Assembly: GCF_025231485.1 (NCBI RefSeq)
Contig: NZ_CP104003.1
Location: forward strand, 2,232,001 to 2,296,000
Origin: Salinirubellus salinus
GTDB taxonomy: Archaea; Halobacteriota; Halobacteria; Halobacteriales; Haloarculaceae
DNA length: 64,000 nucleotides
Reading direction: 5' to 3'
Shown: positions 1 through 57,375 of the stretch, piece after piece
Position numbering within the stretch: the first letter of the stretch is position 1
Layout of the letters: every line of letters starts with the position of its first letter
Position numbers and translations under genes: made by a program
Notes under the pieces: generated by a model
What the model was told of the DNA's origin: nothing
The model's input: the letters and a program-made list of their open reading frames with translations, nothing else
The model's database searches: none

Positions 1-1391
1 CCGTTGCCGGACTTCTTCACGCCGCCGAACGGGAGGTGGACCTCCGCGCCGATACACGGGAGGTTGCCGTAGGCGAGGCCGACCTCGGCGTTGTCACGGT
101 AGTAGTTGATCTCGCGGTAGTTCTCGGAGATGATGGCGCCGGCGAGGCCGTAGTCCGTGTCGTTCTGGATCTCGACCGCGTCCTCGATGTCACCCTCGTA
201 CTCGAGCAGGGCGACGTGCGGGCCGAACACCTCCTCGTGGGTGCACCGGAGCGGCTCCTCGTGGTCGGCCTCGTAGACGAACGGGCCGATCCAGTGGCCG
301 TCCTCGTGGCCCTCGGGGATCTCGTCGGCGTCGAGCTCGGTGCGGTCGACGAGCACGTTCACGTCCTCCTCGCGGGCGAGCTCGTTGTACCGGGAGACCT
401 TCTGTCGGTGCTCGTCCTCGATGAGCGGCCCCATGAACGTGTTCTCGTCGAGCGGGTCGCCCACGGCGACGGACTCGGCGAGTTCGACGAACCGCTCCTT
501 GAACTCGTCGTAGACGTCCGTGTGGACGACGAGACGCTCGGAGGAGACACAGCGCTGGCCGGTGGTCTTGAACGAGGACATCACCGCCGAGTGGACGGCG
601 ATGTCGAGGTCCGCCTCGCTCGTGACGACGATGTTGTTCTTGCCGCCCATCTCGCAGGCCGCGAGTTTGCCGGGCTCGCCGCCGACCTTGCTGGCGATCT
701 GCTGGCCGACCTCGGCGCTCCCGGTGAACAGGACGGTGTCGACGCGCTCGTCCTCGACGATGGCGTTGCCGGCGTCGCCGAAGCCCTGCACCATGTTGAA
801 CACGCCGTCCGGGATGCCCGCGTCCTCGAACATCTCGGCGATGATCTGGCCACACCACGGGGTCTGCTCGGCGGGCTTCCAGACGACGGTGTTGCCCTCG
901 ACGAGCGCGACGGCCATGTGCCAGAACGGGATGGCGACCGGGAAGTTCCACGGCGTGATACAGCCGACGACACCGCGGGGCTTCCGGCGCATGTAGGCGT
1001 CCTTGCTGGGGATCTCGCTCGGGACGACGTCGCCCTTCGGGTGGCGGGCGTCGCCGGCGGCCCACTCGACCATGTGGTAGGCCTCGATGACGTCCGCGCG
1101 CCCCTCGCTGATCTCCTTGCCACACTCGCGGGTGACGACCTCCGCGAGCTCCTCGGTCCGGTCGCGCAGCTCGTGGTAGATGTCCCAGAGGTACTCCGCA
1201 CGGTCGATGTGCGAGAGGTCACGCCACTCGTCCTCGGCCGCCTCGGCGGCCGCGAGCGCACGGTCGATGTCCGCCTCGGTGCCGCGGTGGAACTCCGCGA
1301 GCGTCTCGCCCGTCGCCGGGTTCTCCGAGACGAACGTCTCGGTGCCGCTCCCGTCGGTCCACTCGCCGTCGATGTAGTGTCGTTCCGGCAT
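1..1391 (-). CDS. Aldehyde dehydrogenase family protein, probable 1-pyrroline-5-carboxylate dehydrogenase (3' end outside window)
   Basis: NAD(P)-dependent ALDH-superfamily enzyme; 463 codons are visible and the last roughly 40 residues expected for the family lie beyond the left edge. Reading from ATG 1391, the Rossmann-region motif TPWNFP, the general-base Glu in CEMGGKN and the nucleophile Cys281 in GQRCVSS are intact. It is divergent from an HTH-10 regulator, with proline dehydrogenase just beyond, which suggests oxidation of glutamate semialdehyde (P5C) to glutamate as the second step of proline catabolism. The family assignment is firm; the substrate is inferred from context, and another aldehyde is possible. 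A TATA-like box at 1414-1421 (read leftward) lies 23-30 bases before the start, as expected for a leaderless transcript. Confidence 0.9.
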   Translation of the reverse strand, partial: MPERHYIDGEWTDGSGTETFVSENPATGETLAEFHRGTEADIDRALAAAEAAEDEWRDLSHIDRAEYLWDIYHELRDRTEELAEVVTRECGKEISEGRADVIEAYHMVEWAAGDARHPKGDVVPSEIPSKDAYMRRKPRGVVGCITPWNFPVAIPFWHMAVALVEGNTVVWKPAEQTPWCGQIIAEMFEDAGIPDGVFNMVQGFGDAGNAIVEDERVDTVLFTGSAEVGQQIASKVGGEPGKLAACEMGGKNNIVVTSEADLDIAVHSAVMSSFKTTGQRCVSSERLVVHTDVYDEFKERFVELAESVAVGDPLDENTFMGPLIEDEHRQKVSRYNELAREEDVNVLVDRTELDADEIPEGHEDGHWIGPFVYEADHEEPLRCTHEEVFGPHVALLEYEGDIEDAVEIQNDTDYGLAGAIISENYREINYYRDNAEVGLAYGNLPCIGAEVHLPFGGVKKSGN

Positions 1392-1428: not shown

Positions 1429-1447
1429 CCGACCATGGGAGGGTCGA
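1429..1447. promoter_or_regulatory. Putative operator S1, CCGACC-N7-GGTCGA
   Basis: The 19-base site ccgaccatgggagggtcga lies between the divergent TATA boxes of the aldehyde dehydrogenase and HTH-10 genes. It matches site S2 at 3156-3174 at 17 of 19 positions and shares its left half with S3 at 3090-3108. Its position just upstream of the TATA/BRE fits an activator site. Binding by the adjacent HTH-10 protein is inferred. Confidence 0.6.
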
Positions 1448-1450
1448 ACG

Positions 1451-1458
1451 TGTTAAGC
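1451..1458 (+). promoter_or_regulatory. TATA-like box of the HTH-10 regulator gene
   Basis: TGTTAAGC is centred about 27 bases before ATG 1481, the spacing of a leaderless haloarchaeal promoter. Confidence 0.5.
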
Positions 1459-1480
1459 GGCACGGCCCACAGGGAGGTGT

Positions 1481-2215
1481 ATGGCCAAGAGCGCGCTAGA
1501 GGGGAACGAACACGCGGGTACACGGTTGACACTCGACCTCTGGCATCCGAACTGCTGGGCGATCGGGGCGACCGAACAGGTCGACGGGGGGATACTGGCA
1601 CACGCCATCTACGATTCACCCACCGCACCGGCTCCGGAGGCGGTCAACGGCCTGTTCACCGCGTTCGGGGAGACGGCCGACGAGGTGGAGACCCTGCTCG
1701 AACACGTCGAGGAGTCCCCCCACGCCGGGGAGGTCAGGCAGTTACAGACCCGCTTCGGCCAGCGAGGGGGGAACGCCCCGGGGAACGTGGTCCGCGAGTT
1801 CTTCCTCGAGTACTCGCCGGGGGACATGATCTGTCCGACCCTGCTGGAGTACGGCTTCGTCCACAGCGCCCCCGTCCGCATCGAGGGGGGCCGCGAGACG
1901 TGGCAGGTGGTGTTCGCCGGTGACCGCGAGGAGATCGAGCCGCAACTCGACGAGGTCCGCGAGCACGGTCCAGCCGAGGTGAGCGTCGAGAGCATCACGA
2001 CCGCCGGCCCGTCGAGCGAGACGGACGAACGCCAGCGACGCCTCGAGACGCTCACCCCCACGCAGCGGGAGGTGTTCAACCTCGCGCGCGAGGAGGGGTA
2101 CTACGAGTGGCCTCGCGGCGTCTCGACCCGCGAGCTGGCCGAGGCGCTCGACGTCTCGAAGACGACGCTCCTCGAGCACCTGCGCAAGGCCGAGGCGAAA
2201 CTGCTCGACCCCTGA
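1481..2215 (+). CDS. HTH-10 (bat-type) transcriptional regulator
   Basis: A 244-residue regulator of the haloarchaeal bacterio-opsin-activator-like type. The N-terminal ~180 residues form an uncharacterised putative sensor or ligand domain. The last ~55 residues are the HTH-10 domain, starting at LTPTQREVF and including the helices STRELAEALDVS and TTLLEHLRKAE. It lies between a probable P5C dehydrogenase (divergent) and proline dehydrogenase (convergent, 12-base gap), so it probably controls proline use. The palindromes at 1429, 3090 and 3156 are candidate targets, which would extend its control to the branched-chain amino acid transporter. HTH-10 proteins are often activators; the ligand is unknown. 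Confidence 0.85.
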   Translation: MAKSALEGNEHAGTRLTLDLWHPNCWAIGATEQVDGGILAHAIYDSPTAPAPEAVNGLFTAFGETADEVETLLEHVEESPHAGEVRQLQTRFGQRGGNAPGNVVREFFLEYSPGDMICPTLLEYGFVHSAPVRIEGGRETWQVVFAGDREEIEPQLDEVREHGPAEVSVESITTAGPSSETDERQRRLETLTPTQREVFNLAREEGYYEWPRGVSTRELAEALDVSKTTLLEHLRKAEAKLLDP

Positions 2216-2227
2216 GCGGGCCGGTCC

Positions 2228-3052
2228 CTACGACAGGACCGCCCGGAGCGCGAACAGCGCGTTCTCCTTGCGCTCGCGCACGCGACGGTAGAAGTACTGC
2301 ATCCACTTCGACCCGTACGGGATGTACTGGTACACCTCGTACTCCTCGGCGAGGTCGTACTGCGCGTCCTCGCGCACGCCCATGAGCATCTGCACCTCGA
2401 AGTCGGTGCCGTGCTCCTCGTGGAGGTCGCGCGCGTACTCGATCATCGCGGGATCGTGACTGCCGACGGCGACGCCGCCCTCGAACTCCCGGAAGGCGTA
2501 CGCCATGCACTCGCGGTAGGCCTCGTCCACGTCGGCCTTCTTCTTGTGTGCGAGGTCGTTCGGTTCGTCGTAGGCGCCCTTCACCAGCCGGACCTTCCCC
2601 GGCAACTCGGCGAGGCGTTCGAGGTCGTCGGGCGTGCGCTTGAGGTTCGCCTGCACGCAGACGCCGACGTTCCCGTCCGTCTCGACGGCGTGGCGCTCGT
2701 ACGCGTCCAGCGTCACGTCCGTCGTCTCGTGGTCCTCCATGTCGATCCAGACGAACTCCTCGGTGGAGTCGACGATGCGCGCGAGGTTCTCCTCGAACGC
2801 CGCGTCGCTCACGCCGAGCCCGATCTGGGACGGTTTGACCGAGACGCAGGCGTCCAGCGTGCTCGCCTCCAGCGACTCGAGGAGGTCGACGTACGCGTCG
2901 GCGTCGGCGTCGGCCTTCTCGCGGTCGTGGTAGTGTTCGCCGAGGAGGTTCAGGATGCCCTTCACGCCGTGGCGGTTGCACTCCTCGACGTGGTCGAACG
3001 CCGTCTCGGGGTCCTCCCCCGCCACGAAGTTCGACGCGATAGGCGGTATCAT
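2228..3052 (-). CDS. Proline dehydrogenase
   Basis: FAD-dependent oxidation of proline to 1-pyrroline-5-carboxylate. The 274-residue protein starting MIPPIASNFVAGE has the length of monofunctional archaeal/bacterial ProDH and forms one (beta/alpha)8 barrel. The near-C-terminal YIPYGSKWMQYFYRRVRER carries the Arg pair that in known ProDHs holds the proline carboxylate. The reading frame stays open far upstream, but ATG 3052 matches the conserved N-terminus, and a leftward CTTAGG box (3077-3082) lies 25-30 bases before it. Together with the dehydrogenase at 1-1391 it completes proline to glutamate conversion. Confidence 0.92.
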   Translation of the reverse strand: MIPPIASNFVAGEDPETAFDHVEECNRHGVKGILNLLGEHYHDREKADADADAYVDLLESLEASTLDACVSVKPSQIGLGVSDAAFEENLARIVDSTEEFVWIDMEDHETTDVTLDAYERHAVETDGNVGVCVQANLKRTPDDLERLAELPGKVRLVKGAYDEPNDLAHKKKADVDEAYRECMAYAFREFEGGVAVGSHDPAMIEYARDLHEEHGTDFEVQMLMGVREDAQYDLAEEYEVYQYIPYGSKWMQYFYRRVRERKENALFALRAVLS

Positions 3053-3076
3053 ACACACTGGTGAGAACTGGAACAC

Positions 3077-3082
3077 CCTAAG
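3077..3082 (-). promoter_or_regulatory. TATA-like box of proline dehydrogenase
   Basis: Leftward CTTAGG, 25-30 bases before start 3052. The half-palindrome at 3090-3108 is just upstream. Confidence 0.4.
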
Positions 3083-3089
3083 TGGACAC

Positions 3090-3108
3090 CCGACCATACG
3101 TTTCTCGA
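3090..3108. promoter_or_regulatory. Putative operator S3 (degenerate copy)
   Basis: The site ccgaccatacgtttctcga keeps the exact left half CCGACCAT of S1 and S2. Its right half is weak: TCTCGA in place of GGTCGG, with three of six matches. It lies directly upstream of the proline dehydrogenase TATA-like box. Confidence 0.4.
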
Positions 3109-3153
3109 CTCTCGTACACGAAATAATACACGACGGCGGCGGCGCTCCTCCCC

Positions 3154-3176
3154 CTCCGACCATGGTAGGGTCGGAG
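3154..3176. promoter_or_regulatory. Putative operator S2, perfect palindrome CTCCGACC-N7-GGTCGGAG
   Basis: Two perfect 8-base arms (3154-3161 and 3169-3176) flank a 7-base spacer, immediately upstream of the TATA-like TTTAGG (3177-3182) of the transporter operon. The 19-base core (3156-3174) is almost identical to S1 at 1429-1447. Confidence 0.65.
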
Positions 3177-3214: not shown

Positions 3215-4528
3215 ATGACATCGAATGACAACCGGCGAATCAATCGCCGCGACGTGCTGAAGGGGACGGGTGCGGCGGGACTGGTTCTCACCGCAGGCTG
3301 TGTCAGTACGGCAGACGAGACACCGACACCGACCGAGAGCGGGGGGAACGGTGGCGGTGGCGGCGACGGTGACACCGACACCGCGACGCCCACCGAGGGC
3401 GGCGACATGGGCGGTGCGTACAGCATCGGGATGGTCAACTCCCTGACCGGGTCGCTGTCGGCGTTCGGGGCGCGCAACGAGCGCGGGATGGAACTCGCGC
3501 TGGAGTCGGTCAACGAGGTCGGTATCGGCGGGCGCGAACTCGACATCATCGTCGAGGACTCCGAGAGTCAGGCGCAGGCCGGCGTCTCGGCCGCCCAGAA
3601 ACTGGTCAACCAGGACCAGGTGCCGTTCGTCATCGGCGCGGTCGGCTCGGGGGTGTCGCTGGCCATCTACGAGTCGGTCATCCAGGGGACCGACGTGGTC
3701 CAGCTGAGCCAGAACTCCACCAGCCCGGACCTGACGAACTTCCCGGGACTGCTCCGGATGTCGCCGACGGGTCGCACGCAGTCGACGGCGCTCGCGGACA
3801 TCATCTCCGAGGACGGCTACGACTCCGTGGCGGTCGCGTGGGTCAACAACGACTACGGCCAGGGGCTCGCGGACGCGTTCGTCGAGGCGTGGGACGGTGA
3901 CGTGGCGTACAACAGCCCGCACGACCAGGGCCAGTCATCGTACGCCTCTACGGTGTCGGAGATGGCCAACTCCGGAGCCGACGCGTGGCTGTTCATCACC
4001 TACCAGCCCGAGTTCACGGCGATGGCACAGGAGGCCTACTCGAACGGCTACGAGGCCCAGTACTACGGCGCGGACTCCGTACAGGGCTCGGACGTGCTGT
4101 CCGACACCCCGGAGGGGAGTCTCGAGGGCATGAAGATCGTCACCCCCTCGGCCGCCGTCGAGGAGCAGAACTACCAGGACTTCGCCGAGCGGTTCGAGGA
4201 GGCCTACGACCAGACCCCCAGCTCGTGGGCGGCGTTCGCCTACGACTGCGTCATCACCGCGGCGCTCTCCATCGCGACGGCCGACGAGTTCACCGGCGCC
4301 GCCCTGCAGGAGACCGTCCGGGACGTGACCCGGCCCGAGGGCGAGCAGGTCACCACGTTCGCGGAGGCGATGGACGTGCTCGGCGAGGACGGCTCGGCGA
4401 GCGACATCGACTACCAGGGCGTGAGCGGACCCATCGACTTCGACGAGAACGGTGACCCCGTGGGGTTCCTGCAGATCTTCACGGTGGAGGAACACGAGTA
4501 CGTCTCGACCGGATTCACCTCCGCCTGA
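3215..4528 (+). CDS. Branched-chain amino acid ABC transporter, substrate-binding lipoprotein
   Basis: A 437-residue periplasmic-binding-type protein (LivK/ANL_receptor family, type 1 fold). It has a Tat signal with Arg11-Arg12 and a lipobox ending at Cys29 (VLTAGC). A low-complexity Thr/Gly/Asp linker to about residue 67 holds the domain off the membrane, and the ligand-binding core follows from YSIGMVNSLTG. First gene of the operon with two permeases and two ATPases. The family also includes receptors for amides, urea or aromatic acids, so the substrate is inferred. The promoter carries palindrome S2, shared with the proline genes. Confidence 0.93.
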   Translation: MTSNDNRRINRRDVLKGTGAAGLVLTAGCVSTADETPTPTESGGNGGGGGDGDTDTATPTEGGDMGGAYSIGMVNSLTGSLSAFGARNERGMELALESVNEVGIGGRELDIIVEDSESQAQAGVSAAQKLVNQDQVPFVIGAVGSGVSLAIYESVIQGTDVVQLSQNSTSPDLTNFPGLLRMSPTGRTQSTALADIISEDGYDSVAVAWVNNDYGQGLADAFVEAWDGDVAYNSPHDQGQSSYASTVSEMANSGADAWLFITYQPEFTAMAQEAYSNGYEAQYYGADSVQGSDVLSDTPEGSLEGMKIVTPSAAVEEQNYQDFAERFEEAYDQTPSSWAAFAYDCVITAALSIATADEFTGAALQETVRDVTRPEGEQVTTFAEAMDVLGEDGSASDIDYQGVSGPIDFDENGDPVGFLQIFTVEEHEYVSTGFTSA

Positions 4529-4532
4529 GACG

Positions 4533-5447
4533 ATGTCGGTCCTCGAGTACGTCGCGAACGGGCTGGTGTTCAGCAGCATCATCGTCCTCGCGAGTATCGG
4601 CCTGTCGCTGGTCTACAGCATCGCCGACTTCGCGAACTTCGCCCACGGCGATACGATGACGGTCGGCGCGTACGGCACGCTGGTCACCTTCGGGTTCGTC
4701 GGTGGACTCGGGGGCACCGTCTTGGGACTGCCGTACGGCTTCTTCGTAGCACTCGTCGCCGGCATCGTCGTCGCCGCCGTCGTCGCCGTCGTCACGCAAC
4801 GACTCGTCTACGAGCCGCTCGACATCGGGTCCATCGGCCTGCTCATCACCTCGATCGGGGTGGCGTTCGTCTACCGAGCGCTCGTCCGACTGGGGTTCGG
4901 TGCGGACCCACGTGAGTACGCGGTCGAGCTGCAGCGGCCCATCGAGGCGCTGTTGCCCTACGGCATCCGGATGACGGTCCACGACGTGGCCATCGTCGGC
5001 TCGGCGGCCCTGCTCGTGACGGGCCTGCACCTCCTGTTGCAGTACACGGACCTCGGTCGGAAGATGCGTGCGATGGCCGACAATCCGGACCTCGCCCGCG
5101 TGAGCGGCATCCGGACCGGCCGCATCCGCATCTGGACGTGGCTCATCGGCGCGGGGCTGGCGGGGGCCGGCGGCGGCTTCCTCGGCCTCTACAACAACGT
5201 CGGCCCCCGCATGGGGTTCGACATCCTGCTCGTCGTGTTCGCCGCCGTCATCCTCGGCGGCATCGGCTCCGTCTACGGGGCGATGCTCGGCGGGTTGCTC
5301 ATCGGGATGATCGACCAGATGACGCCGATACTCGGTGACGTGGGGATCCCCATCGGCACCGAGTACTCCTACGCCATCGCGTTCGTCATCATGGTCGCGG
5401 TACTGCTCGTCCGGCCGAACGGTATCGCCGGGGAGGCAGGCTCGTGA
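4533..5447 (+). CDS. livH: Branched-chain amino acid ABC transporter permease, LivH type
   Basis: A 304-residue polytopic permease. The N-terminus MSVLEYVANGLVFSSIIVLASIGLSL and the motif FANFAHGDTMTVGAY are typical of LivH, and the conserved EAA-like loop and final helices (GGIGSVYGAMLGG) are present. Start ATG 4533, 4 bases after the binding-protein stop; a longer in-frame start inside the upstream gene is unlikely. Its stop overlaps the GTG start of the second permease by 4 bases, indicating translational coupling. Confidence 0.93.
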   Translation: MSVLEYVANGLVFSSIIVLASIGLSLVYSIADFANFAHGDTMTVGAYGTLVTFGFVGGLGGTVLGLPYGFFVALVAGIVVAAVVAVVTQRLVYEPLDIGSIGLLITSIGVAFVYRALVRLGFGADPREYAVELQRPIEALLPYGIRMTVHDVAIVGSAALLVTGLHLLLQYTDLGRKMRAMADNPDLARVSGIRTGRIRIWTWLIGAGLAGAGGGFLGLYNNVGPRMGFDILLVVFAAVILGGIGSVYGAMLGGLLIGMIDQMTPILGDVGIPIGTEYSYAIAFVIMVAVLLVRPNGIAGEAGS

Positions 5448-6763
5448 GCGTCGGCGACCGACTCCCGCAGCTGGGACTGCTCGACGGCTACACGCGGGCC
5501 GAGCGTGGCGTCGTCGGGTTCGTCGTCCTGCTCATGCTGCTGTTGACCTACGGCCTCGTCACCGGCGGCCTCGGGCCGACGTACTTCCTCTACCTCATCG
5601 GTCTGGTCGGGATGTACGTCCTGCTCTCGTTCGGACTGAACGCCCAGTGGGGCTACACGGGGCTCATCAACTTCTCCGTCGCGGCATTCTTCGGTATCGG
5701 CGCGTACGGTACCGCCCTGTTGAGCGCGGACAGTTCGCCCATCGCGGGCGACATGCTCCCCGTCGTGGGACTGTTCGTCGGCCTCCTCGTCGCCGCCATC
5801 GTCGCCGTCGTCATCGGCATCCCGACGCTGCGACTGCGGACCGACTACCTCGCCATCGCCTCGCTGGGGCTAGCCGAGGTCATCCGCATCCTCGTCCAGA
5901 ACCAGCGCGACTACACGAACGGGAGCGCCGGCCTGCGTGGCATCCCCGGCTTCTTCGAGGGGTGGCCGGTGCTGGAGACGTTCCCGCAGGCGATGCCCAC
6001 GCTGATCGTCGAGCGGCTGGTCGTCACCATCCCGTTCGTCGCGGAGTTCGGCCTGTTCGGGTTCCGCCTCGGCCCCGGCTTCTGGCAGGGCCTGCTGAAC
6101 GTCTCGCTCGTGCTCGTCTTCGTCGGTGTGACCTACGCCATGCTGCGCCGGGTCCACCGCTCGCCGTGGGGGCGCGTGCTCCGGACCATCCGGGCCGACG
6201 AGGACCTCGCCGAGGCGCTCGGGAAGAACACCTACGCGTTCAAGATGCAGTCGTTCGTCCTCGGCAGCGTCATCATGGCGCTTGCGGGGGTGTTCTACGC
6301 GCACCTGAACCTCTACGTCTCGCCCGGCGACTTCGAGCCCATCAACACGTTCTACGTCTGGATCGCCGTCATCCTCGGCGGGAGCGGCTCGAACCGGGGG
6401 GCGATGTTCGGCGGGTTCGTCGTCATCGCCATCCGCGAGGGGACCCGGTTCCTCGGGGACCTGCTGCCGGCGGCGTTCCCGACGCTCGGTGTCCCGTTCA
6501 CCGACCTCGTGGTCTCGTTCCCGGCGCTCGTCGAGAACACGTACGCCACCGTGGTGAGCAACTTCGCGTCGACCCGCCTGCTGGCGGTCGGCCTGATCAT
6601 CATCCTCGTGATGCGGTTCCGGCCCGAGGGCGTGCTGCCACCGCAGCGCGAACTCATCTGGCCGGCGGCGACCGAGGGGAGCGACCCCGGCTCGGAGCCG
6701 GGGGCACGGGCCGTGAGTACAGACGGCAGTGGAGCGAACCGTGGAGGTGAGACGAATGAGTGA
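5444..6763 (+). CDS. livM: Branched-chain amino acid ABC transporter permease, LivM type
   Basis: A 439-residue permease with about ten hydrophobic segments. LivM hallmarks are LSFGLNAQWGYTGLINFSVAAFFGIGAY, the loop TDYLAIASLGLAEVIRI, and RSPWGRVLRTIRADEDLAEALGKNTYAFKMQSF. GTG start 5444 overlaps livH by 4 bases; the C-terminal ~40 residues are a polar tail. Its end overlaps the ATPase start at 6756 by 8 bases. Confidence 0.93.
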   Translation: MSVGDRLPQLGLLDGYTRAERGVVGFVVLLMLLLTYGLVTGGLGPTYFLYLIGLVGMYVLLSFGLNAQWGYTGLINFSVAAFFGIGAYGTALLSADSSPIAGDMLPVVGLFVGLLVAAIVAVVIGIPTLRLRTDYLAIASLGLAEVIRILVQNQRDYTNGSAGLRGIPGFFEGWPVLETFPQAMPTLIVERLVVTIPFVAEFGLFGFRLGPGFWQGLLNVSLVLVFVGVTYAMLRRVHRSPWGRVLRTIRADEDLAEALGKNTYAFKMQSFVLGSVIMALAGVFYAHLNLYVSPGDFEPINTFYVWIAVILGGSGSNRGAMFGGFVVIAIREGTRFLGDLLPAAFPTLGVPFTDLVVSFPALVENTYATVVSNFASTRLLAVGLIIILVMRFRPEGVLPPQRELIWPAATEGSDPGSEPGARAVSTDGSGANRGGETNE

Positions 6764-7658
6764 GACCACCCAGGCGGAGACCGAGACGGAGAGCGAGGCC
6801 TCGACCGCGGCCCAGCAGGCCGCCGAGGAGGACCCGGACGGCGGGTTCCAGTTCGGCGGCCCCGACATGCACGACGGCGCGAACCTCGGCAAGGAGGACG
6901 TCGTCCTGAGCGTCGAGGGGCTGCGAAAGACGTTCGGCGGCCTCGTCGCCACCGACGACGCCACCTTCGAGGTCGAACGCGGGACGATCACGGGCATGAT
7001 CGGGCCGAACGGTGCCGGCAAGTCCACGCTGTTCAACCTCGTCAGCGGGTTCTACGACCCCGAGGCGGGGAGCGTGACCGTCAACGGCGTCGACGTGACC
7101 GGCGCCGAACCGCACGAGGTGGCCGAGAAGGGCCTCGTCCGGACGTTCCAGACCCCCCGGAAACTGGAGGGGATGACGGTCCGCGAGGCGATGCTCGTCG
7201 GCCCGCGCTCGCAGGTCGGCGAGTCGTTCGTCTCGCTGTTCACCCGCGGTGACGAGGTGACCACGCAGGAACGCAAGAACCTGGAGGACGCCCACCGCAT
7301 CCTGGAGGAGTTCGAGATCGGTGACCTCGCCCACCAGGCCGCGACCGACCTCTCGGGCGGGCAGATGAAGCTCGTGGAGCTGGCCCGCGCGATGCTGGCC
7401 GAACCAGAGATACTGCTGCTCGACGAGCCCGTCGCCGGCGTCAACCCGACGCTGGCGAACAAGCTCTCCGACCAGATAGAGCGACTGAACGAGCAGGGGA
7501 CCACGTTCCTCGTCATCGAACACGACATGGAGTTCATCATGAACCTCGCGGACCCCATCGTGGTGCTCGACCGCGGACACGTCCTCACGGAGGGGACGCC
7601 CGACGAGGTGCGCTCCGACGACCGTGTCATCGACGCGTACCTCGGAGGTGGCGCCTGA
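6756..7658 (+). CDS. livG: Branched-chain amino acid ABC transporter ATP-binding protein, LivG type
   Basis: A 300-residue ABC ATPase with Walker A GPNGAGKST, Q-loop region, signature LSGGQMK, Walker B ILLLDEPVAG and the switch His in EHDMEFIM. An acidic, probably disordered extension of about 45 residues rich in Glu and Thr precedes the ABC domain and is unusual for LivG. ATG 6756 is preferred because the upstream GTG only lengthens this tail. It ends 1 base into the next ATPase gene. Confidence 0.92.
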   Translation: MSETTQAETETESEASTAAQQAAEEDPDGGFQFGGPDMHDGANLGKEDVVLSVEGLRKTFGGLVATDDATFEVERGTITGMIGPNGAGKSTLFNLVSGFYDPEAGSVTVNGVDVTGAEPHEVAEKGLVRTFQTPRKLEGMTVREAMLVGPRSQVGESFVSLFTRGDEVTTQERKNLEDAHRILEEFEIGDLAHQAATDLSGGQMKLVELARAMLAEPEILLLDEPVAGVNPTLANKLSDQIERLNEQGTTFLVIEHDMEFIMNLADPIVVLDRGHVLTEGTPDEVRSDDRVIDAYLGGGA

Positions 7659-8407
7659 TGGCGAGTTCGGAGACCAGCGCGAGCGACGGCGACGGCCGCG
7701 GCGAGCGCGTCCTGACCGTCGAGCACGTCGACAGCGGCTACGGCGAGGTGCAGGTGCTCGACGACCTGACGCTCGACCTCGCCGAGGGCGAGGTGGCCTG
7801 TCTCATCGGGCCGAACGGCGCCGGCAAGTCGACCGTCCTCAAGACGGTGTTCGGGATGCTGACGCCGTGGACCGGCCACGTCCGGTTCCACGGGCAGGAC
7901 ATCGGCGGGATGGCCCCCGAGGACATCGTCCGCGAGGGCATCGGCTACGTCCCGCAGACCGAGAACGTGTTCGGGTCGCTCACCATCGAGGAGAACCTCC
8001 GGATGGGCGGGGTCGCCCGGAAGGACGACCTCGGACCCGTCCTCGACCAGCTCTACGACCGGTTCCCCCTGCTCACGGAGAAGCGGAACGCGAAGGCGAG
8101 CACCCTCTCGGGCGGTCAGCGGCAGGTACTCGCGTTCGCCCGGGCGCTGGTGATGGAACCCGAGATCCTGCTCATCGACGAGCCGTCGGCCGGGCTCGCA
8201 CCGAACACCGCGGACGAGGTGTTCGAGGACGTCCTCGAGGTCAACGACCTCGGGACGGCCATCCTGATGGTCGAGCAGAACGCGAAGAAGGGGCTGTCCA
8301 TCTCGGACCGCGGCTACGTCCTCGACCAGGGGACGGTCCGGTTCGAGGACGACGCCGACGCGTTGCTCGACAACCCCGAGGTGTCGCGGCTCTACCTCGG
8401 CGGCTGA
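7658..8407 (+). CDS. livF: Branched-chain amino acid ABC transporter ATP-binding protein, LivF type
   Basis: A 249-residue ABC ATPase with Walker A GPNGAGKST, signature LSGGQRQ and Walker B ILLIDEPSAG. YVPQTENVFGSLTIEENLRMGG is the LivF-type Q-loop segment. ATG 7658 overlaps the livG stop by one base (TGATG). It is the last gene of the operon and pairs with LivG as the ATPase heterodimer. Confidence 0.92.
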   Translation: MASSETSASDGDGRGERVLTVEHVDSGYGEVQVLDDLTLDLAEGEVACLIGPNGAGKSTVLKTVFGMLTPWTGHVRFHGQDIGGMAPEDIVREGIGYVPQTENVFGSLTIEENLRMGGVARKDDLGPVLDQLYDRFPLLTEKRNAKASTLSGGQRQVLAFARALVMEPEILLIDEPSAGLAPNTADEVFEDVLEVNDLGTAILMVEQNAKKGLSISDRGYVLDQGTVRFEDDADALLDNPEVSRLYLGG

Positions 8408-55893: not shown

Positions 55894-57375
55894 TCAGTCC
55901 GCCCGGAGGCCGTCGAACGACGTCGCGCGCTCGGCCGGCACGGGCGTCGTCACCAGCGAGACGCCGACGGTCAGCACGAGACCCAGCAGCATCCCGACGA
56001 CGCTCGCCGACCAGCCGCCGAGGTACGTCGAGGGGATCTGTACGAGAAAGACGCTCGCGAGGTAGAACGCCTGCGTGCCGACGATGCCGGCGAGCATCCC
56101 GGCGCGGGTGGTCCGGGTCCAGTAGAGCGCGACGATGACCGGGAGCGCGAGCTGGGCGAAGCCGCCGAACGCCGTGTCGCCGATCTGGACGATGGTCCCC
56201 TCCGCGAACAGCGAGGCGACGAACGACCCGAGCGCGAAGACGGCGACGCCGATGCGGCCCACGAGCGCCTCGCGGTCACCGCTCCCGAGTGCCCCGCGGA
56301 GCCGCTGGACCGGCCGGTAGACGTCACGGGTGAGGTACGAGGCCCCCGACAGGAGCATCGAGTCCGACGAGGACATCATCGCGGCGAGCGCGCCGGCGAT
56401 GACGAGCGCGGCGAACCACGCGGGCGTGTACTCGTTGAGCAGCGCGGGGACGACGTTGCCACCCTCGGGGACCGTCACCCCGAGGCCGGCCGCCCACGCG
56501 CCCAGCATGAACGCCGGGACGAACAGCAGGAGGACCAGCACCGGCCAGAGCGCGAACGTGCGCTGGAGCACCTGCTTCGAGCGCGCGGCGAAGAACCGCT
56601 GGTTGATCTGCGGGAACATCGTCACGCCGAAGGCGATGGAGATGGCCGTCGAGAGCATCCACTCGGGGGTGTAGAGGCCACCGCCGAGCGCGGCGAACTC
56701 GGGCTGGTTCGTGGCCATCGCGGCCGTGGCCTCACCGAGGCCACCGACCGCGGCGAGCACCCACGCGACGGCGCCCCAGACGAGCACCAGCATGAACGCC
56801 CCCTGGATGGTGTCGGTCCACGCGACGCCGCGCATCCCGCTGACGACGACGTAGAGCACCATGAACAGGGTGATGCCGCCGGCGCCGACCCAGAACGGGA
56901 TGGCCCCGTCCGTGAGACCCACGATGGCCTGCCCGGCCCCCTTCTGCTGGAGCATCACGTACGGGAACAGCCAGAACAGCGAGAACCCGGCGACGAGGAC
57001 GCGGAGCCCCGTCGAGTCGAAGCGGTCCCCGAGCATCTCGCCGAGGGTGACGTAGCCGTGTTCCTTCCCGACGAGCCACTGTCGGTAGCCGACGACGTAC
57101 CAGAGGACGGCGAACAGCACGCCGTCCATCAGCCCCATCACGAGGATCCACTCGGGACCCGCGCCGTAGGCGAGGTTGGGCCCGCCGAAGAAGGTGAACG
57201 CCGAGAGCAGCGTCGCGAACGTCGTGAACAGGAGGACGACAGTCCCCAGCGTACGGCCGGCGAGGTAGAAGTCCTCGGCCGAGCGGTCGGTGCGGCGGTA
57301 GGCGACGAGGCCCACCGCGACGGCGACCAGCAGGTAGGCACCGATGACGCCCACCTGGACGTACAGTTCGTTCAC
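55894..57375 (-). CDS. Sodium:solute symporter (SSS family)
   Basis: A 493-residue protein with about 13 helices. The SSS core is clear: EDFYLAGRTLG, FTFFGGPNLAYGAGPEWIL, GMRGVAWTDTIQGAFML, and SSSDSMLLSGASYLTRDVYRP with the Na2-site Ser residues. GTG 57375 (MNELYVQVG) overlaps the DUF3311 gene by 4 bases. Substrate unknown; carboxylates, amino acids or osmolytes are usual. Confidence 0.92.
   Translation of the reverse strand: MNELYVQVGVIGAYLLVAVAVGLVAYRRTDRSAEDFYLAGRTLGTVVLLFTTFATLLSAFTFFGGPNLAYGAGPEWILVMGLMDGVLFAVLWYVVGYRQWLVGKEHGYVTLGEMLGDRFDSTGLRVLVAGFSLFWLFPYVMLQQKGAGQAIVGLTDGAIPFWVGAGGITLFMVLYVVVSGMRGVAWTDTIQGAFMLVLVWGAVAWVLAAVGGLGEATAAMATNQPEFAALGGGLYTPEWMLSTAISIAFGVTMFPQINQRFFAARSKQVLQRTFALWPVLVLLLFVPAFMLGAWAAGLGVTVPEGGNVVPALLNEYTPAWFAALVIAGALAAMMSSSDSMLLSGASYLTRDVYRPVQRLRGALGSGDREALVGRIGVAVFALGSFVASLFAEGTIVQIGDTAFGGFAQLALPVIVALYWTRTTRAGMLAGIVGTQAFYLASVFLVQIPSTYLGGWSASVVGMLLGLVLTVGVSLVTTPVPAERATSFDGLRAD

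Follow-up and report, generated by a model that had tools for sequence, protein, structure and literature searches.

The left end of the window, by which we mean the whole 64,000-nucleotide stretch of Salinirubellus salinus DNA that was analysed, carries from left to right an aldehyde dehydrogenase gene (ALDH; 3 to 1391, minus strand), an HTH-10 regulator gene (1481 to 2215, plus strand), a proline dehydrogenase gene (ProDH; 2228 to 3052, minus strand) and a five-gene liv-type ABC operon on the plus strand. The ALDH matches PF00171 and is called P5C-dehydrogenase-like from its context and synteny; no NCBIfam equivalog scored above its cut-off, and the gene extends past the left edge of the window, its full length being seen in L209. 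The regulator is a Bat-type protein of 244 amino acids (PF04967, E 3.2e-20) and the proposed binder of the operators described below, while the ProDH (PF01619, E 1.9e-28) is the only match in the genome, with no second copy found. The operon opens with a substrate-binding protein (SBP; 3215 to 4528; PF13458) bearing a TAT signal (TAT_signal), followed by two permeases (4533-5447 and 5444-6763) and two ATPases (6756-7658 and 7658-8407), and this combination of a Peripla_BP_6 SBP with paired permeases and ATPases places it in the liv-type ABC family.

A preliminary description of this DNA had pointed out two closely similar sites, CCGACCATGGGAGGGTCGA at 1429-1447 and CCGACCATGGTAGGGTCGG at 3156-3174, and a further copy before ProDH, CCGACCATACGTTTCTCGA at 3090-3108. 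We found all three at these places: the first two differ at positions 11 and 19 only (17 of 19 identical), the left half of the third is exact, and each site is followed, on the side of its gene, by an AT-rich, TATA-like box. An exact match to CCGACCATNNNAGGGTCG occurs at the first two sites and nowhere else in the 4.38-Mb genome, against an expected count of roughly 0.04 as estimated from base composition assuming about 68% G+C. But the palindrome read from them, CCGACC-N7-GGTCGG, was misregistered, as the orthologous promoters keep CCGACCATGGTCGG, whose dyad lies about 3 bp further left. This 14-bp palindrome is present in orthologous ALDH-HTH10 intergenic regions and in SBP promoters; it has G or T at position 3 and A, T or C at position 4, with corresponding variation at the mirror positions, and as the search pattern left all four unconstrained, their bias supports the palindrome independently. 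The GGTCGG that had been taken for a right arm overlaps the G-rich spacer separating the operator from the TATA box. A genome search with the former pattern, as had been suggested, was unspecific, giving 272 hits per strand when one mismatch was allowed, and the pattern was dropped on this count and because its right arm is absent from orthologous sites such as CCGACCATGGTCGGCAGAG.

In the corrected register, Operator 1, CCGACCATGGGAGG (1429 to 1442), separates the divergent ALDH and HTH-10 genes, whose start codons are 37 and 38 nt away, respectively; it is conserved in orthologues, has a matrix score of 19.4 of 24.4, and its promoter-proximal half facing ALDH is a perfect TGGTCGG. Operator 2, CCGACCATGGTAGG (3156 to 3169; matrix score 22.7), lies 45 nt upstream of the transporter operon's start and is followed by GTCGGAG and then the TATA-like TTTAGG. 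The ProDH promoter carries the half-site TGGTCGG (3090 to 3096, minus strand), 37 nt before the ProDH start and likewise followed by a TATA-like box. This copy had been called degenerate; in 48 ProDH promoters TGGTCGG or a near form occupies a fixed place, 36-42 nt ahead of the ProDH start, and the copy is therefore a conserved half-site element. The exact core CCGACCATGGNNGG was found in the genome only at 1429-1442 and 3156-3169, and with one mismatch it is no commoner here than its reversed control, so that the evidence lies in place and conservation and not in number.

The comparison covered 44 ProDH loci, together with additional regions surrounding HTH-10 genes, ProDH genes and occurrences of the motif; many of the compared loci are from Halorubrum and hence not independent, and the palindrome is also found in about 20 other genus groups. 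Within the loci, 94 of 100 matches to CC-N2-CCATGG-N2-GG lay no more than 200 bp upstream of ALDH, HTH-10, ProDH or SBP, which amounts to 3.0 motifs per kb in promoter zones vs 0.0066 elsewhere in the loci, an approximately 450-fold difference, and 30 of the 31 HTH-10-linked SBP promoters had a site. The proposed check for the motif in related haloarchaea was thus positive for the corrected palindrome, which sits in the promoters of ALDH/HTH-10, ProDH and the liv-type operon in about 20 genera. Conservation of the element in the orthologous promoters of all target genes also bears out the earlier idea of a common regulon tied to HTH-10.

Gene neighbourhoods bear on the substrate of the transporter. 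At L250-L259 a PutP-like sodium symporter accompanies ProDH and HTH-10 in place of the liv-type operon. Where HTH-10 lies near ProDH, we counted 36 loci with the liv-type transporter, 12 (about 10 genomes) with the PutP-like symporter and none with both, figures that are not frequencies, as the PutP-like loci were chosen for their HTH-10/ProDH neighbourhood, while the exclusion stands; a further 10 loci had neither transporter in view. Because the PutP-like symporter replaces the liv-type transporter at these loci and never joins it, proline is the most economical substrate and, as judged from gene neighbourhoods, the liv-type transporter probably imports proline, its SBP probably binding it. 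Of the two options in the preliminary description, import of proline or joint control of proline and branched-chain amino acid use, the replacement favours the first. The second, in which the transporter would import branched-chain amino acids under control shared with proline use, is in our view unlikely: it draws on the PDB sequence relatives of the SBP, which are Leu/Ile/Val-binding proteins and do not settle the substrate, and it is opposed by the mutual exclusion with PutP-like symporters, by the lack of any branched-chain catabolic gene among the mapped loci and by a genome search for PutP in which nothing scored above the family cut-off (best sodium-symporter match 110.8 vs 515.5 bits). 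No member of the transporter scored above an NCBIfam Liv cut-off. A weak sodium/solute symporter match (110.8 bits to the PutP model), the only one in the genome, lies at 55912-57351 of the window on the minus strand, and no palindrome was reported near it.

Spacing to the TATA box and the start codon is fixed. When ALDH, SBP and ProDH promoters were anchored on the site, AT content peaked 7-11 nt past the site end; the site lies upstream of the TATA box with 5-9 nt between its end and the box, and the start codon follows the site at a median of 43 nt for ALDH, 45 nt for SBP and 37 nt for ProDH. The HTH-10 promoter has a weak TATA box of its own. An operator directly upstream of BRE/TATA, with short leaders or none, is what would be expected of a haloarchaeal activator site. 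We propose, with high confidence, that a compact proline-use regulon is governed locally by a one-component HTH-10 (Bat-type) regulator, a dimer of which would bind CCGACCATGGTCGG, or the half-site at ProDH, immediately upstream of BRE/TATA at four promoters, those of the P5C-dehydrogenase-like ALDH, of HTH-10 itself, of ProDH and of the liv-type transporter. The regulon thus conceived has its catabolic gene, ProDH, which carries the regulatory half-site. Points against the proposal are the weak TATA box of the HTH-10 promoter, the presence of just half a site at ProDH, and, as described below, the genomes that have a close HTH-10 and lack the strict motif and the arginine-linked relative without a site. 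With the site ending 5-9 nt before the TATA box and the start codons 37-45 nt beyond the site, the arrangement fits an activator that would help TBP/TFB; the inducer is probably proline or the P5C formed from it, which the N-terminal domain of HTH-10 would sense. Many catabolic regulons are under repressor control, and a protein bound so close to BRE/TATA could also block TFB; the same regulon and operator might then be served by HTH-10 as a repressor released by proline or P5C. We consider this improbable, because none of the four promoters has the site within its TATA box, the site instead ending shortly before it, and because the literature presents Bat, DmsR and NarO, the named relatives in the HTH_10 family, as activators (PMC1447603, PMC11218638).

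That HTH-10 is the protein which reads the palindrome is indicated by the distribution of the two. Among 195 genomes of the order, a close HTH-10 was present in 45, and CCKACCATGGWCGG was found in 31 of these vs 10 of the other 150 (Fisher 8e-17); 43 of 52 motif places lay within 5 kb of an HTH-10 homologue. These figures take no account of genome relatedness. On a tree of 70 HTH-10 proteins the motif is clustered (9 changes vs a shuffled mean of 12.9) and is not limited to one clade, and the site occurs even beside HTH-10 proteins just 44-50% identical to that of the window (L193, L210, L250-L254). The strict motif is absent from about 14 of these 45 genomes. Some of them have a looser variant, for instance GCGACCATGATCGG ahead of ALDH (L173, L176), and no recognisable site was seen in L177, L187 and L190, where a close HTH-10 is present. 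Two genomes have HTH-10 with ALDH at one place and ProDH with SBP at another, and sites were found at both (L035/L242, L069/L243). In a third genome, roughly 72 kb separate HTH-10 from a ProDH that carries a full site 52 bp upstream of its start (L203). Where ProDH has no HTH-10 beside it, the conserved promoter place had no site. This holds for a 75%-identical second ProDH copy in a genome whose first copy has the site (L227) and for a 75%-identical ProDH from a genome without a close HTH-10 (L226). The HTH-10 regulon suggested earlier is strongly supported by these results, as the motif tracks HTH-10 across genomes, is kept on unlinked targets and is missing from equally similar ProDH genes without HTH-10; on such comparative grounds, the shared promoter palindrome is very probably the HTH-10 binding site.

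Palindromes away from HTH-10 in two genomes (G184, G154) lay inside coding sequence (L205, L206) and were taken as chance, and a short half-site match in L245 was counted likewise because of its wrong distance from the start. Another genome (G173) has an HTH-10 gene broken in two (L229:4375-4617 and L230:2530-3015): ProDH has the C-terminal portion as its neighbour, and over 0.9 Mb of the contig lie between this and the N-terminal portion. The sites of SBP and ProDH are kept there, and this genome offers a natural test of regulator loss. Two loci, L246 (7151-15105) and L247, combine close HTH-10 relatives with the palindrome before a different liv-type operon, the SBP of which is 21-24% identical, and in L246 a gene for a DAO-family FAD oxidoreductase lies 1.2 kb further on.

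Amino acid genes are often under Lrp-type control, and an Lrp-type regulator encoded elsewhere, or some other protein, might bind the palindrome, with HTH-10 a mere neighbour. To this we give little credence, since the motif tracks HTH-10 genes across genomes, stands beside HTH-10 even with different targets (L246, L247) and stays beside it where HTH-10 is unlinked from ProDH (L242, L243). Chance likeness of GC-rich promoter sequence, for which one could cite that CCGACC-N7-GGTCGG with one mismatch is common and that the one-mismatch core does not exceed its reversed control, is practically negligible, being contradicted by the recurrence of the element at fixed promoter positions across about 20 genera, by the ~450-fold promoter enrichment, by the other ProDH promoters without the element and by the co-occurrence with HTH-10.

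As regards the HTH-10 protein itself, PF04967 matched residues 191-242 with 72.1 bits (gathering score 23.1), and the Pfam search returned just HTH_10 and a sub-threshold Sigma70_r4_2, with no GAF or PAS domain; the N-terminal part matched no Pfam family. An AlphaFold2 model (mean pLDDT 88, pTM 0.67) shows two ferredoxin-like units followed by the HTH region, and Foldseek returned one weak PDB match, 5m86 (Ta1207; E 2e-4, TM 0.44), so that the ligand is not readable from the fold. Five residues, H22, P23, C25 and W26 of an HPxCW motif together with H41, are invariant in 53 HTH-10 sequences, and we would guess that the N-terminal domain binds a ligand. In one genus (L249:1427-9184), the gene for a 59%-identical HTH-10 comes last in a row with gdhB, arginase, ornithine-type aminotransferase and polar amino acid ABC genes, a set that probably serves arginine use; the palindrome is absent from this locus, which ruled out the motif as a general HTH_10 box. 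Arginine and proline breakdown converge at P5C/glutamate semialdehyde, which suggests that the inducer of this arginine-linked relative may be related to that of the proline HTH-10. Taken as a whole, the reading of HTH-10 as a metabolite-sensing HTH_10 one-component regulator, whose N-terminal ferredoxin-like units would bind proline or P5C, which would read the 14-bp operator and control a liv-type proline importer, and whose arginine-linked relative would sense a related compound, is tentative, and we put it at slightly below an even chance.

To our knowledge, haloarchaeal genomes carry many HTH_10 regulators and few of these have a known regulon, operator or signal. A search of a collection of open-access papers found no proline regulon of this kind described. 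For one HTH_10 subfamily there is now a precise candidate operator, together with a regulon of four promoters that is kept across about 20 genera. The ABC transporter, which would be named branched-chain if judged by sequence alone, gains a probable substrate; if this is true, a liv-type proline importer has gone unrecognised across haloarchaea. Regulon, operator and transporter substrate are all directly testable in culturable haloarchaea such as Halorubrum and Halorussus.

Among known systems, Bat of Halobacterium is a sensor-activator of the HTH_10 type whose UAS sites lie near bop, brp and crtB1, and the present locus resembles it in the C-terminal Bat-type HTH and in a short site repeated at a few linked promoters beside the regulator gene (PMC1447603). 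GAF and PAS domains are part of Bat, whose role concerns light and oxygen, whereas the HTH-10 of the window has a different N-terminal domain and, as proposed, proline gene targets. The operator also appears to differ from the Bat UAS. DmsR and NarO are short HTH_10 activators of anaerobic respiration and, like HTH-10, have no PAS or GAF and are local to their target genes (PMC11218638, PMC1447603). Their targets belong to DMSO or nitrate respiration, and amino acid use is not described there. In bacterial put regulons ProDH, P5C dehydrogenase and the PutP transporter are locally controlled as one regulon, and the likeness to the present locus lies in ProDH, a P5C-dehydrogenase-like enzyme and a probable proline transporter under one putative local regulator; the regulator families are unrelated, and the window has an archaeal promoter and a liv-type ABC instead of PutP. 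With its operator corrected and the case for proline as the transporter substrate improved, the proline-use regulon of HTH-10 is supported as a well-defined addition to the known HTH_10 local regulators.
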